Below, piece by piece: positions 11,815-23,199 of a stretch of 64,000 nucleotides of DNA. The notes beneath the pieces are model-generated. The model made no database searches. It was given only the letters and a program-made list of their open reading frames with translations, and was not told the DNA's origin. Source of the DNA: Sordariomycetes sp. S80-01Y (lineage: Eukaryota; Ascomycota; Sordariomycetes). Location: assembly GCA_037042185.1 (NCBI GenBank), contig JAXQJY010000032.1, positions 2,604,001 through 2,668,000 of the forward strand, written 5' to 3'. The first letter of the stretch is position 1. The number at the start of each line of letters is the position of its first letter. Made by a program: the position numbers and the translations under genes.

Positions 11815-14322
11815 TCAAAGTCTGTGCTCGCTCCGCAATGTCCTCAGCCGACTTCCTTGAGGATCGTACACTGGCTCCGTCGCGACGGTCGCCTTGATAC
11901 GCCGACCAAAATACTCAATCTCAACCCCATCACCCGTCGATAAAGATGCCTTGGTGTAAGCAAAAGCTACAGGTTTCCCGACCGAGTAGCCAAAGGCGGC
12001 GCTGGTGACATACCCCTCGGCTTTGCCGTTGACGTACACTGGTTCCTTGCCCATGACCATTGATCGACCGTCGTCGATTGTCAAGCATCTCAGCCTCCTA
12101 TCATTCTTCTCCTTGGAGAGGTTTTGGAGGGCAGAGTATCCAACAAAGTCTTTCTTGCCCGGCGCAATCGCGTGCTCCAGCCCAGCTCGGCGAGGGTCAT
12201 GCTCAGTAGTCATGTCCATTCCCCATATCCGAACACCCTTTTCCAGCCTCAGAGAGAAGAAAGCATGTCTGCCTGCTGCAATCATCCCATGAGCCTGGCC
12301 GGCTTGCCAGAGAGTGTCCCAGAGGTGTAGCCCGCAATCAGCACTGGCGTGGATCTCCCAGCCGATCTCGCCAACGTAAGACACATTGATCATTGTGACG
12401 GGGACTCCGCCGACAAAGCATCTCTTGACGCTCGACGCCGGAAGACCTTTACTGCTGAAGTCGTCCGTGCTGACGGATGAGATGATGTCTCGAGAGCGAG
12501 GACCCCAGAGGCCGAGGCAGCATGTTCCTCCGGTGATGTCGCGAACCTGCACTGAGCGCTCGGGCGAACTTTTGGTCTGGTCCCTGGCTTCGCGGGTGAG
12601 ATATGTGTAGTCGACATGACCATTTGCGTTGATGAGAAAAGAGTCCTCTGAAAGTCTCGCAGCTGTCAAGTCGCTTCGAATGCCAGCTTTCCTGTCAAGA
12701 AGGAGTGTGTAGGTGACACTGCCAGGGGCTTTCGTCATTTCACCCGTCGTCAGACGCTGGAGCAAACTTTCGGCCCCTGGGCCTGACACCTCCAGTCTTC
12801 GCAACGGCGTCATATCGAACATGCCGGCCGCCGTCCTCGTCTTCCATGCCTCTGCCGCAGCGATGGGAGAGTAATACCTCGAAGACCACACATCGCGGTC
12901 GACAGGCTTCCACCTGGACGGAAGGCTCTTCAACAAGCCCGCATTGGCTTCATACCACTCCGGGCGCTCCCATCCTCCGGTTTCGAGAAAGTAGGCGCCC
13001 AGGTCCCGCTGTCGGGAGTAGAAGGGTGTAACGCGGAGGTTTCGGGGAGATTCCCTCGGTTGGAAGGGATGCACGATGTCGTACACTTCCACGAAGTCTT
13101 GCGAAGAGGTCTCCTTGACGTAAGCGGGCGACGTTTGTACCTCTTCGAATCGAGCGAGTTCACACCCCGAAATATCGACACTCGATGCGCCGTTGGTGAG
13201 AATCTCGGCCATTGCCCGCGCGACACCGGCGGAATGCGTCACCCACACTGCTTCGGCAACGTAAAAGCCATCCAAATTCGGCGACTGTCCAACCAAGGGG
13301 CCGCCGTCTGGAGTGAAAGAGAGGATACCGTTGAAGCCCTCAGCAATCTTGCTTTCCTTCAGTGCGGGAAGGATTTCCTGTGAGAGCTTCCACGCAGGAT
13401 CGAAGTCTTTGGGTGTGAATTCGAGCCGAGACGGCATGTTCTTGTCCGTGACCTGCTTTGGAGTTGGGCCAAGGGATTCGGCGGTCACGGCAATGGGGCG
13501 ATGCCCATAGTAACCGATACCGTAGCGGTCTCCGTGTTCGCGGTAGTAGAGATCCTGGTCCTGGTAGCGGAGGATGGGAAGCTGTGCGCCGTTTGGAAGC
13601 TCGTTCTTGCCTTTCTGTGCGGGAACGCTTGTGGTCTTCACGTATTGATGAGCCATGGGTTGAAGAGGAATTGGCAAGCCAACCATTGCGCCGACTTCGA
13701 CTCCCCAGAAGCCAGCACAGGATACGATGCTGTCTGCTGGGATCGTTCCGGCGGGAGTCTCAACCCCTGTTACCCTTCCATTTGCTCTTTCAATTCCAGT
13801 AACAGTTGTCGACCCAACATATCGAACGCCGGCTTTTCTTGTTCGCTCGATGAGTAGCTGGACCGCCCTAGCCGCAAGTGCCAGGCCGTCACTGGGAATG
13901 TGCAAGCCACCCAGAACCACATGCTCGCTGAGCAGAGGGTAGACCTTGATGCACTCTTCCACACTCAATAGCTTCGTCTCAATTCCCCATGACGCTGCCC
14001 ATCCATGCTTCCTCTTCAGTTCCTCCAATCGCTCAGGCGTTGTGGCGACTTCCAAGCCCCCAACCGGGTTAAAGCAATTCTGACCATCCTTTTCTAGGGA
14101 CTTCAGCTTTTGGACAGTATACTGAGCTAGATTCGACATGGTCTTGGAACCATTGGTCTGGAATACTAGTCCAGGAGCGTGCGATGTTGATCCGCCAGGA
14201 AGGTCAAGGGGGCCTTGTTCGACGACTGTGATGTTTTTCCACCCGCGGGAAACTAGCTCGTCGGCCAGGTTGGTACCGACGATGCCTGCTCCTATGATCA
14301 CAACGCGCTGTGACGTATCCAT
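11815..14322 (-). CDS. Dimethylglycine/sarcosine dehydrogenase-type FAD- and folate-binding enzyme
   Basis: Predicted to oxidise an N-methyl group of dimethylglycine (or sarcosine) and pass the one-carbon unit to tetrahydrofolate. It is a single exon of 835 aa, close to bacterial dimethylglycine oxidase and the mature mammalian enzyme. Domain order is: a DAO-type FAD domain with [10 protein letters not shown] at residues 8-17; the GSTSHAPG motif, whose His48 aligns with the histidine that binds FAD covalently in this family; a middle FAO_M domain; then GCV_T (from about 495, [19 protein letters not shown]) and GCV_T_C domains for folate. There is no mitochondrial presequence, since the Rossmann motif starts at residue 8. 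The C-terminus is HRL, which fits the extended peroxisomal PTS1 consensus. Upstream lies a perfect 14-bp palindrome (14537-14550) shared in part with two neighbours. It acts with the Rieske oxygenase and the FAD oxidase in the inferred pathway. Confidence 0.92.
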
Positions 14323-20745: not shown

Positions 20746-23199
20746 ATGACACCCCCGGATGAGGGCAGTGGTGCTCGCGGGAGACGACGCTCCCATCATG
20801 CGTGCCTCACTTGCAGGTGAGTCGATTCAACCTCTGGTTCTGTGTGAAAGTACATCACTGTTGACACAAGACAGGAGGCAGAAGACTCGTTGTCCTGGGG
20901 AGAAGCCAGCTTGCTCAAGCTGTGTACGACTCAGGAAGCAGTGCACCTACGCGCCTTCGTCGAGACCGGCTCAGAGTGATCGATCGGTAAGACCTGGAGT
21001 AAAAGCCTGAGAGAACATCTGTGTAGACGTCGACTGACCTCTGTCAGGAGGAGAGACTTGCTCATCTGGAAGAGAAGTTGGATCGTCTCTTGAGCGGGAG
21101 CTTGTAATGAAACGGGTTCCGACCAACCTACCTTCGGACATTCTGACCCGGTTCTCAGGGCGAGCAATACAGCACGTCAGGACCATACGATCGAAGAGAT
21201 AGCCGATTCGCCGGCCAAGTCATTTTCAACGACACCGCCAGCATACGACTCGAAGTCTGTCGCCAGCAACAACAACGACACCCACCCGACCTCAGCACTC
21301 ACATTCTTCGACAGCGATGACTCCAGCCTGCGGCCAGGGCCATCGGAAATTGCGCGAGGTATCAATCTCTACTTCAAGTACTGTCACAGACAGCCCATCT
21401 GGTGCTTTGAGCGTGACCAAGTTGCAAACTACAACAGGATACCAGAGGAACTAGCCTGCAGCATCCTCGCCTTGACGTCGCGGTTTTCGGAGAGCGGTAA
21501 TCAGATGCAGATCCATGGCGAGAACGCGAAGACGCTCATCATGCTTCGCATTGCAAACGGTTCGGTAGAGATCACGACTATAGAGAGTCTTTGTCTTCTT
21601 TCGTATTCTTCTTTCATTGGTAAGCACACAGCTTGGTACCGTTGTAATTTTGGGCTGACATCGATCAGACGGCAACTTGCACCTCGGCCAGTTCCACCTC
21701 GGTCTGGCTTTCCAACTGTGTCGATCAGCGATGCTTGACCTCGAATCAGCATATGCCGGTAATGATCCCACCACAGAGCGCAAGAAAAGACTGTTTTGGA
21801 GCCTCCAGCTCCTGGAGCAATTCTATGGCCGTCAAACGGGACTCTTGAGCGTCCCAAGCGAGATATGGCGGCCCTCTTACTCCTCCACCAGGGCCAACCA
21901 GACTGAAGTCGATCCCTCTGCACCTCCTCTGCCTCGTGATGAACTGGGCTGCTCCAGCCCCGACGAAGCGGGCGTCTGGAACACGAGCGTTCATCTCGCG
22001 TGGGTCTGGAGCCAAGTACGCAAGTATGTGTCGAACTGCGCCCACAACAGGCTGAAGGAGCCTTGGCGGCACGACTCGTTCTACGCCAAAGTGGTCTCGG
22101 ACTTCATGGAGACTGAGAACCGCATACCGATCTGCCACCGCTACGACACAGCCAAGTTCTACAAGCGGAAGATGGAGGAGCTCAAGATCAACCGCGACTA
22201 CTGGGCGCCGTGGATCAAGGAGCAGTTCACCTACCACGCCATCCACACCGTCATGAACCATCCGTTCCTCTATATTGTCGGAGCGCAGCACAACCCAAAC
22301 TTGGCAATTCCAAATACTTTCTGGAGAAGATCGTCGGAGCTGGCTCTGCTCCACTCGACGTGGATCGTTCGGATGATCGACATGGTGGTGGACAAGCAGA
22401 TGCCGCTGGCCGACCCCTTTTTCGGCCACGCGGCGGCTATTGCAGCGACGGTTCATCTATACTATTGCTGCGCCGCAGCCGCGAGACTAAAGCACAAGTC
22501 GAACACGGATTTTGCGAAATGCAGGAGGTTTCTGAAACAGTTTATCCCTTCGTCTGCAGCTTGTCGCGCTCTGGTGAGTTCCTGTTTGTTTAAGCTGGTC
22601 GGGTTTTCACCATAGCTAACGGATCACAGGATCGAAATCTGGACAAGATGACACAGATGGCAGCTGGACCCGACAGCATGGATGTCGAGGACTGGATGCC
22701 TTCCAAGATCTACCTCAGCGTACCCTTAATGTGGGAGATATTGCAATTCTCCTTTACAGAAGACCCTCAAAATGTGCCCACGGCCGGGCTTCTGGACTCT
22801 TCACTCGCGCCGGCAATTCCCCAAGGTGACTCGGACGGCAACTCGACGCTCGAGATAATCGTCGCAACCTCTCCAGAAATCACCATCAACACGGCCGACG
22901 GCGGGCAAGAAGCTCCGACCAGCACCTTGTCGTACAAAGGGCCCCAGGTACAGACCACCTACAACACCACGAGGGGATCGCCCTGGAACGACTCCGCTCG
23001 GGACGAGCACATGAGAAACGGAGAGCAGACGGACTTTCTGAGCTTCAACTTCACGCCCTGGCTCTACGCAGACTCGGCGCAGTTTGTCGACATGGAGAAC
23101 ATGGGCTACGACGGCTCGCAGAGCTCCATGAGCGAATCCAGGGGTACGGCGTGGTGGGAGGGGGAGAATTTCAGCAACATCATGTTTAACCACTTCTAG
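20746..23199 (+). CDS. Zn2Cys6 fungal-specific transcription factor, candidate pathway regulator
   Basis: Predicted nuclear regulator. Exons: 20746-20816, 20875-20986, 21048-21103, 21159-21619, 21669-22573 and 22630-23199, giving 724 aa. The N-terminal cluster is CLTCRRQKTRCPGEKPACSSC followed by VRLRKQC (C-x2-C-x6-C-x6-C-x2-C-x6-C), split by intron 1. A short coiled-coil-like helix (EERLAHLEEKLDRLLSG) follows, as expected for a dimer. The middle region (about residues 120-480) has the fungal_trans pattern, with YFKYCHRQPIWCFE, a GQFHLGLAFQLCRSA helix and KKRLFWSLQLLEQFYG. The C-terminal ~190 residues are acidic and Ser/Thr-rich, with aromatic residues typical of activation regions. Its position right after the FAD oxidase suggests control of the amine-demethylation genes (inference). 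Most Zn2Cys6 dimers bind CGG triplets, and the shared palindrome has these. Confidence 0.9.

Follow-up and report, generated by a model that had tools for sequence, protein, structure and literature searches.

We identified a cluster of four genes in the fungus Sordariomycetes sp. S80-01Y that may demethylate betaine-type compounds to glycine. The cluster occupies positions 11815-23199 of a 64,000-nucleotide stretch of contig JAXQJY010000032.1 (this whole stretch is called the window below) and encodes, in order, a dimethylglycine oxidase (DMGO), a Rieske oxygenase, a flavo-oxidase and a Zn2Cys6 transcription factor. Conversion of glycine betaine all the way to glycine is the best single account of this gene set, and we put its probability at roughly 55%. 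Homology makes it nearly certain that the dimethylglycine step is encoded, and an enzyme pair leading from dimethylglycine to glycine is likely. The first step is the least secure: in it, betaine is an unproven, predicted substrate of the Rieske enzyme.

The four gene models are open frames without stops, and their introns are of the GT-AG type (those of the Zn2Cys6 factor gene were picked by eye, from the sequence only):

11815..14322, minus strand: dimethylglycine oxidase (DMGO); one exon (14322-11815), intronless, 835 aa; domains DAO, FAO_M, GCV_T and GCV_T_C
15389..16696, minus strand: group-V-type Rieske oxygenase; exons 16696-15864 and 15809-15389, 417 aa
18593..20013, plus strand: FAD oxidase of the monomeric sarcosine oxidase/fructosyl-amine oxidase (MSOX/FAOX) family; exons 18593-19400, 19454-19694 and 19743-20013, 439 aa
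20746..23199, plus strand: Zn2Cys6 transcription factor; six exons, 724 aa; domains Zn_clus and Fungal_trans

The initial annotation had placed four such genes in a row, and the gene models and Pfam domains confirm this. Scores exceed the Pfam cut-offs for DMGO (GCV_T 231 bits, DAO 182, GCV_T_C 78, FAO_M 71), the Rieske protein (Ring_hydroxyl_A 89 bits, Rieske 61), the flavo-oxidase (DAO 110 bits) and the Zn2Cys6 factor (Zn_clus 39 bits, Fungal_trans 43). The Rieske gene and the flavo-oxidase gene diverge from a 1.9-kb stretch between them. The contig is fungal in character, with spliceosomal introns, the Zn2Cys6 factor and surrounding CLASP, RhoGAP, PPR and TRP genes.

In the proposed route, the Rieske oxygenase and a reductase encoded elsewhere would hydroxylate glycine betaine at an N-methyl group, with dimethylglycine and formaldehyde as products. 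By homology, DMGO would convert dimethylglycine to sarcosine and H2O2, with the methylene group passed to tetrahydrofolate or lost as formaldehyde. The MSOX/FAOX-type enzyme, which is probably peroxisomal (it ends in ARL), is predicted from its family to convert sarcosine to glycine, formaldehyde and H2O2. With methylated glycines as nitrogen source, the Zn2Cys6 factor may activate the three enzyme genes via a palindrome that they share.

The dimethylglycine oxidase and its origin

The DMGO protein is 65% identical to the solved Arthrobacter globiformis DMGO (1pj5) across 827 residues, full length. It scores 1272 bits against this enzyme and 333 bits against mitochondrial dimethylglycine dehydrogenase (DMGDH), and we rejected the latter identity on that basis. 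The DAO, FAO_M, GCV_T and GCV_T_C domains are present in one chain, as in 1pj5, and the protein is nearer to DMGO than to DMGDH. His48, His225, Tyr259, Asp551, Tyr649 and Glu656 (fungal numbering) are invariant in all 43 rows of the DMGO tree. We take His48 to be the FAD site, and His225, Tyr259 and the folate-domain Asp552 presumably have the roles ascribed to them in 1pj5. Thus, architecture, the FAD histidine, equivalents of His225, Tyr259 and Asp552 and the oxidase class are common to the fungal and the bacterial protein, and the dimethylglycine-type flavoprotein of the initial annotation is strongly supported.

Unlike the A. globiformis enzyme, the protein described here has a fungal host and neighbors (the Rieske oxygenase and the flavo-oxidase) that differ from the bacterial ones, and it continues for eight residues past the usual bacterial end. 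Among the bacterial DMGO homologues listed, 40 of 45 end no more than two residues from the usual point, and the other five are longer by 3 to 13. The fungal tail ends in SEHRL; at a guess, its HRL might be a peroxisomal targeting signal type 1 (PTS1), weak at best.

Matches to DMGO in the species genome collection came from 13 loci: three of Arthrobacter (64-66%), one each of Glutamicibacter (58%) and Nocardiopsis (57%), six of Chloroflexota (44-46%) and two distant ones (26 and 29%). In the 43-row tree, in which it is the sole fungal row, the fungal DMGO falls inside a nine-row set with 100/100 support; all five named rows among the eight bacterial ones are Micrococcaceae. Excluding it from the 34 actinobacterial rows was rejected by the approximately unbiased (AU) test (p 2.3e-5). 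A tree that separates it from the eight remaining rows of its nine-row set was not rejected (AU p 0.10). When one further Arthrobacter row was added, a ten-row set was recovered with 100/100 support (AU p 1.8e-5). Because the fungal protein is nested among Micrococcaceae-type rows, we conclude from sequence comparison that the gene was acquired horizontally. The predicted donor is actinobacterial, near the Micrococcaceae, since exclusion from the actinobacterial rows was rejected and exclusion from its own set was not; exact placement within this set is not fixed by the AU test. The G+C content at third codon positions is 0.615 in the DMGO gene, compared to 0.59-0.74 in six other genes or open reading frames (ORFs) of the window and 0.79-0.89 in two Arthrobacter genes. 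The value is within the range of the window and below that of Arthrobacter, and therefore the gene has adopted the composition of its host.

Adjoining the DMGO gene, at 10546-11511 of the window (minus strand), is a gene for a BSP-family peptidase of plants and bacteria (251 bits).

The flavo-oxidase, the candidate regulator and a shared palindrome

Placement of the flavo-oxidase in the MSOX/FAOX superfamily is based on its DAO fold and covalent-FAD cysteine (ICW). These features and an HGFKF-like motif are shared with fructosyl-amine oxidases and monomeric sarcosine oxidase, although similarity to both is low. The HGFKF motif also occurs in four of the seven bacterial relatives aligned. Three residues past the lysine of its NK motif the enzyme has an arginine, where fructosyl-peptide oxidase has glycine and two of the seven bacterial relatives have arginine. 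MSOX binds the substrate carboxylate by Arg52 and Lys348. ARL at the C-terminus is a standard peroxisomal signal, and the tail of this enzyme is thus PTS1-like. By context, sarcosine is the likeliest substrate. The initial annotation called this a sarcosine/fructosyl-amine-type oxidase; the family holds (DAO domain, FAD cysteine), and an oxidase of sarcosine or N-methyl amino acids beside DMGO is a reasonable prediction. Relatives of the flavo-oxidase were found neither in plasmids nor in viral contigs.

The Zn2Cys6 factor is a candidate regulator of the cluster, judging from its position and from a palindrome upstream of each of the three enzyme genes:

14536..14551, no strand assigned: ACGGTCACGTGACCGG (palindrome; candidate regulator site), at 214 bp upstream of the start of DMGO
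16985..17000, no strand assigned: CCGATCACATGACCGG (palindrome), at 289 bp upstream of the start of the Rieske gene
18321..18336, no strand assigned: GAGACCACGTGATCGG (degenerate palindrome), at 257 bp upstream of the start of the flavo-oxidase gene

The common near-palindrome, CCGRTCAYGTGRYCGG, matches at 14536, 16985 and 18321 and nowhere else in the window within two mismatches; it was spotted by eye and written down after the sequence had been viewed. A 13-base core, allowing one mismatch, has six matches compared to 0.98 expected, and none of 100 shuffles reached six. These matches represent four places, two of which are counted on both strands, and one place (22622) is inside the regulator gene. 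The 16-base pattern was not enriched when three mismatches were allowed (11 matches, reached in 11 of 100 shuffles), and the region upstream of the Zn2Cys6 factor (20014-20745) contains no version within four mismatches. The shared palindrome is a suggestive lead toward one regulon.

The Rieske oxygenase and its substrate

The Rieske protein has the full set of catalytic residues and the signatures of quaternary-amine (group V) enzymes: the cluster ligands C95/H97/C115/H118 (CxH/CxxH), the iron ligands H221/H226/D326 (2His-Asp), the bridging E218, and the cysteine pair at CntA positions 206 and 209. CntA, Stc2 and two GbcA-type rows have this pair too in the same alignment. An aromatic residue suited to a quaternary amine is also in place, in favor of the proposed route. 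Among solved relatives, CntA is the best; the fungal protein shares with it Tyr203, Glu205, Cys206/Cys209 and most substrate contacts, although identity to the CntA fragment is just 25% overall.

Several results weigh against betaine-to-glycine conversion. With the NCBIfam GbcA model (NF058607), the Rieske protein scores 151 bits, compared to a cut-off of 670 that is strict (two bacterial Asn-type proteins reach only 361 and 374), and the match is limited to residues 26-229, half of the protein. The position of CntA residue 203 is occupied by Y216 rather than by the Asn of group Vb. According to passages of PMC7948474, an aromatic residue at 203 marks class Va (carnitine, choline, benzalkonium) and Asn marks class Vb (betaine and stachydrine N-demethylases). 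Six of the seven CntA substrate contacts are matched (Tyr203, Tyr225, Phe258, Asn270, Tyr295 and Tyr315); Phe319 is in a gap, and Phe258 is in a loosely aligned stretch. A 63-row Rieske tree puts the protein, which has a long branch, within a set of 13 rows that includes CntA (97/91). The AU test rejected a tree that unites it with the Phe-type Rieske proteins linked to DMGO in bacteria (p 0.013). A tree that unites it with GbcA and Stc2 was not rejected (AU p 0.09); the best tree places it elsewhere. Thus, the equation with bacterial GbcA implied by the initial annotation failed on score, on Tyr in place of Asn and on the CntA-like pocket. The accompanying claim, that three steps and a regulator are gathered in one locus, is partly supported: the dimethylglycine step stands and the Rieske enzyme as GbcA does not.

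Expected partner genes were not found either. A reductase for the Rieske enzyme was not found in the window by inspection of ORFs by eye, a scan of nine flanking ORFs or tblastn; a BetT-type transporter and a gene for formaldehyde disposal were not found by tblastn. Ten bacterial partner proteins were used as queries (GbcB, two PDR/VanB reductases, one FAD oxidoreductase, BetT, an aldehyde dehydrogenase, two formaldehyde dehydrogenases, SHMT and FolD), with no match at E <= 0.01, a search that distant fungal versions (including a reductase) or small exons could escape. Support from promoter tests not tuned to the palindrome is weak to moderate, and several are null: in unbiased shared-word tests (summed score), 7 of 200 to 200 of 200 shuffles scored equally high, and in palindrome-restricted tests 5 to 428 of 1000 other window segments did. 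Finally, the flavo-oxidase matches fructosyl-amine and fructosyl-peptide oxidases best among solved proteins (114 bits, compared to 36 for sarcosine oxidase), and it scores 50 bits with soxA_mon (TIGR01377), below a cut-off of 480 that no match in eight actinobacterial genomes searched reached either.

Actinobacterial DMGO loci bear on the meaning of the aromatic residue. We surveyed 394 genomes from the class of an Arthrobacter; some DMGO match occurs in 386 and some Rieske match in 203, many of the matches being distant paralogues. From 33 genomes we collected 34 regions around DMGO (L080-L113), all but L099 chosen for having both genes on one contig, so that the sample is not an estimate of frequency. 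A Rieske ORF is present in 33 of the 34 regions, with Phe at position 203 in 31 and Asn in two, and in 32 of these 33 the midpoints of the Rieske ORF and a DMGO ORF are separated by 2.0 to 13.5 kb. Phe-type loci also encode S-(hydroxymethyl)mycothiol dehydrogenase (over the cut-off in the two checked), serine hydroxymethyltransferase (one) and the formyl-tetrahydrofolate deformylase PurU (one). These neighbors form a kit for formaldehyde and one-carbon units. We know of no activity established for the Phe-type actinobacterial proteins; judging from their neighborhood, N-demethylation may be compatible with an aromatic residue at 203. Because Phe-type Rieske genes adjoin DMGO and formaldehyde genes in Actinobacteria, residue 203 need not exclude demethylation, and we rejected it as decisive. 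By this analogy, betaine demethylation by a non-GbcA Rieske enzyme would likely have a parallel in Actinobacteria. The rule of an aromatic residue at 203 for sorting Rieske enzymes of quaternary amines may thus fail to separate demethylases from the rest.

We considered that the Rieske gene and DMGO might have arrived together from one bacterial operon, and rejected this given that none of the 33 Rieske ORFs has Tyr203 and given the AU test above. This suggests that the fungal arrangement is convergent and was not inherited as an operon. The operons closest with respect to the fungal DMGO are those for GbcAB and DMGO in Arthrobacter (L003) and Glutamicibacter (L004), in which DMGO and the Rieske gene are likewise adjacent. 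Unlike these, the fungal Rieske protein lacks the Asn signature and is 31% identical to the GbcA of L004 over half its length, and the GbcB and FolD of the operons were among the tblastn queries without a match in the window. We advance tentatively a wider proposal: that in fungi a non-GbcA Rieske enzyme with an aromatic, CntA-like pocket demethylates betaine in a route to glycine built around an actinobacterial DMGO under its own Zn2Cys6 regulator, and that Actinobacteria have a second, aromatic-type demethylase beside DMGO.

The main rival is that the Rieske enzyme is a fungal choline oxygenase (CMO1-like) forming betaine aldehyde or trimethylamine from choline, with dimethylglycine made by another enzyme and processed by DMGO and sarcosine oxidase. 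We consider this rather unlikely. It agrees with the class-Va aromatic residue, the grouping with CntA-like enzymes and the role of CMO1 in Scheffersomyces (S.) stipitis described below. It agrees as well with the first-listed of the plasmid matches, a Rhodococcus H1 protein (33%) adjoining betT. However, the cluster would then be without its central step. Furthermore, the offsets of Tyr295 and Phe301 of spinach choline monooxygenase (SoCMO2), counted from His226 in an alignment that includes no plant sequence, correspond to Ile229 and Leu235, which are non-aromatic and do not fit the plant enzyme. Aspergillus fumigatus reportedly has another route of betaine synthesis (Lambou 2013), which we also count against this rival; the enzyme of that route is a choline oxidase. 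No choline oxidase was noticed among the window ORFs inspected by eye, in agreement with the initial statement that choline oxidation is not encoded here.

Less probable again is that the enzyme is an oxygenase of carnitine, gamma-butyrobetaine or another betaine and a mere neighbor of the DMGO/sarcosine oxidase pair. The CntA-like pocket and the standing of CntA as best solved relative favor this, but the trimethylamine formed by CntA would be of no use to DMGO and sarcosine oxidase, and the shared upstream palindrome modestly favors one regulon. Unlike in CntA and CMO1-like systems, the genomic context here points to methylglycine breakdown. The least probable alternative, that the flavo-oxidase has another secondary amino acid as substrate (pipecolate, saccharopine, fructosyl amino acid) and that no one pathway unites the four neighboring genes, draws on its scores with fructosyl-amine oxidases and soxA_mon, but is improbable given that the gene adjoins DMGO and that HGFKF and the Arg past the NK lysine (the Arg in only two of seven relatives) fit an alpha-amino acid substrate.

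Two bacterial gene groups are of separate interest. One Rieske family of Actinobacteria (L080-L113, L010, L086), with motifs like ENFMECYHCATIHPELTEVLPEFA, adjoins DMGO and one-carbon or formaldehyde genes; four members scored 210-226 bits with the GbcA model, and by analogy the family may be an unrecognised betaine demethylase. On the Aminobacter plasmid pAM01 (L026, 7905-17070), genes for an Asn-type Rieske protein, a PDR/VanB reductase and two DMGDH-like flavoproteins are clustered, possibly as a demethylation operon for another quaternary amine. No relatives of the fungal Rieske protein were found in viral contigs, and its C-terminus (LAF) does not match the tripeptide [LIM]-[DES]-[WF] for targeting by cytosolic iron-sulfur cluster assembly (CIA) given in passages of PMC10623007.

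Relation to earlier work and other genes of the window

The idea of such a pathway in fungi is already known. Passages of PMC4830055 report that in Aspergillus nidulans grown on choline the transcript of the DMGO AN8654 and betaine rise, and its authors propose a route from choline via betaine to glycine. A fungal DMGO and a route to glycine are thus common to that proposal and the cluster described here; the words Rieske and sarcosine are absent from its main text, and its passages mention no cluster. According to passages of PMC5545021, Colletotrichum on wild-type tomato induces genes annotated as dimethylglycine oxidase, sarcosine oxidase and Rieske family; these come from one list, the order of which may differ from genomic order. 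S. stipitis CMO1 is required for choline as nitrogen source, and choline use by yeasts is thought to pass via trimethylamine (passages of PMC5816127 and PMC7033051, citing Linder 2014 for CMO1). PMC7033051 calls such pathways well studied in filamentous fungi, citing other work. Passages of PMC6157903 describe fungal CMO-like proteins, none of them characterised, as non-aromatic at the sites diagnostic of true choline monooxygenases of plants; by that description, the Rieske protein resembles them at the 295/301 offsets.

In the titles, abstract beginnings and passages searched, we found no fungal enzyme for conversion of glycine betaine to dimethylglycine and no such fungal cluster. Within this literature, the horizontal origin of DMGO, its non-GbcA Rieske partner and the clustering with a regulator are new. 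Betaine and choline from plants are plentiful sources of nitrogen. Should the step from betaine to dimethylglycine be open in fungi, the locus provides one candidate gene, beside a horizontally acquired enzyme for the next step.

Elsewhere in the window, we identified a gene for a protein with a T5orf172/MUG113 domain (6478-7509, minus strand) and a piece of a sulfatase-like gene (1224-1976, minus strand; SGSH_C 27.3 bits, slightly below the cut-off of 29.3).

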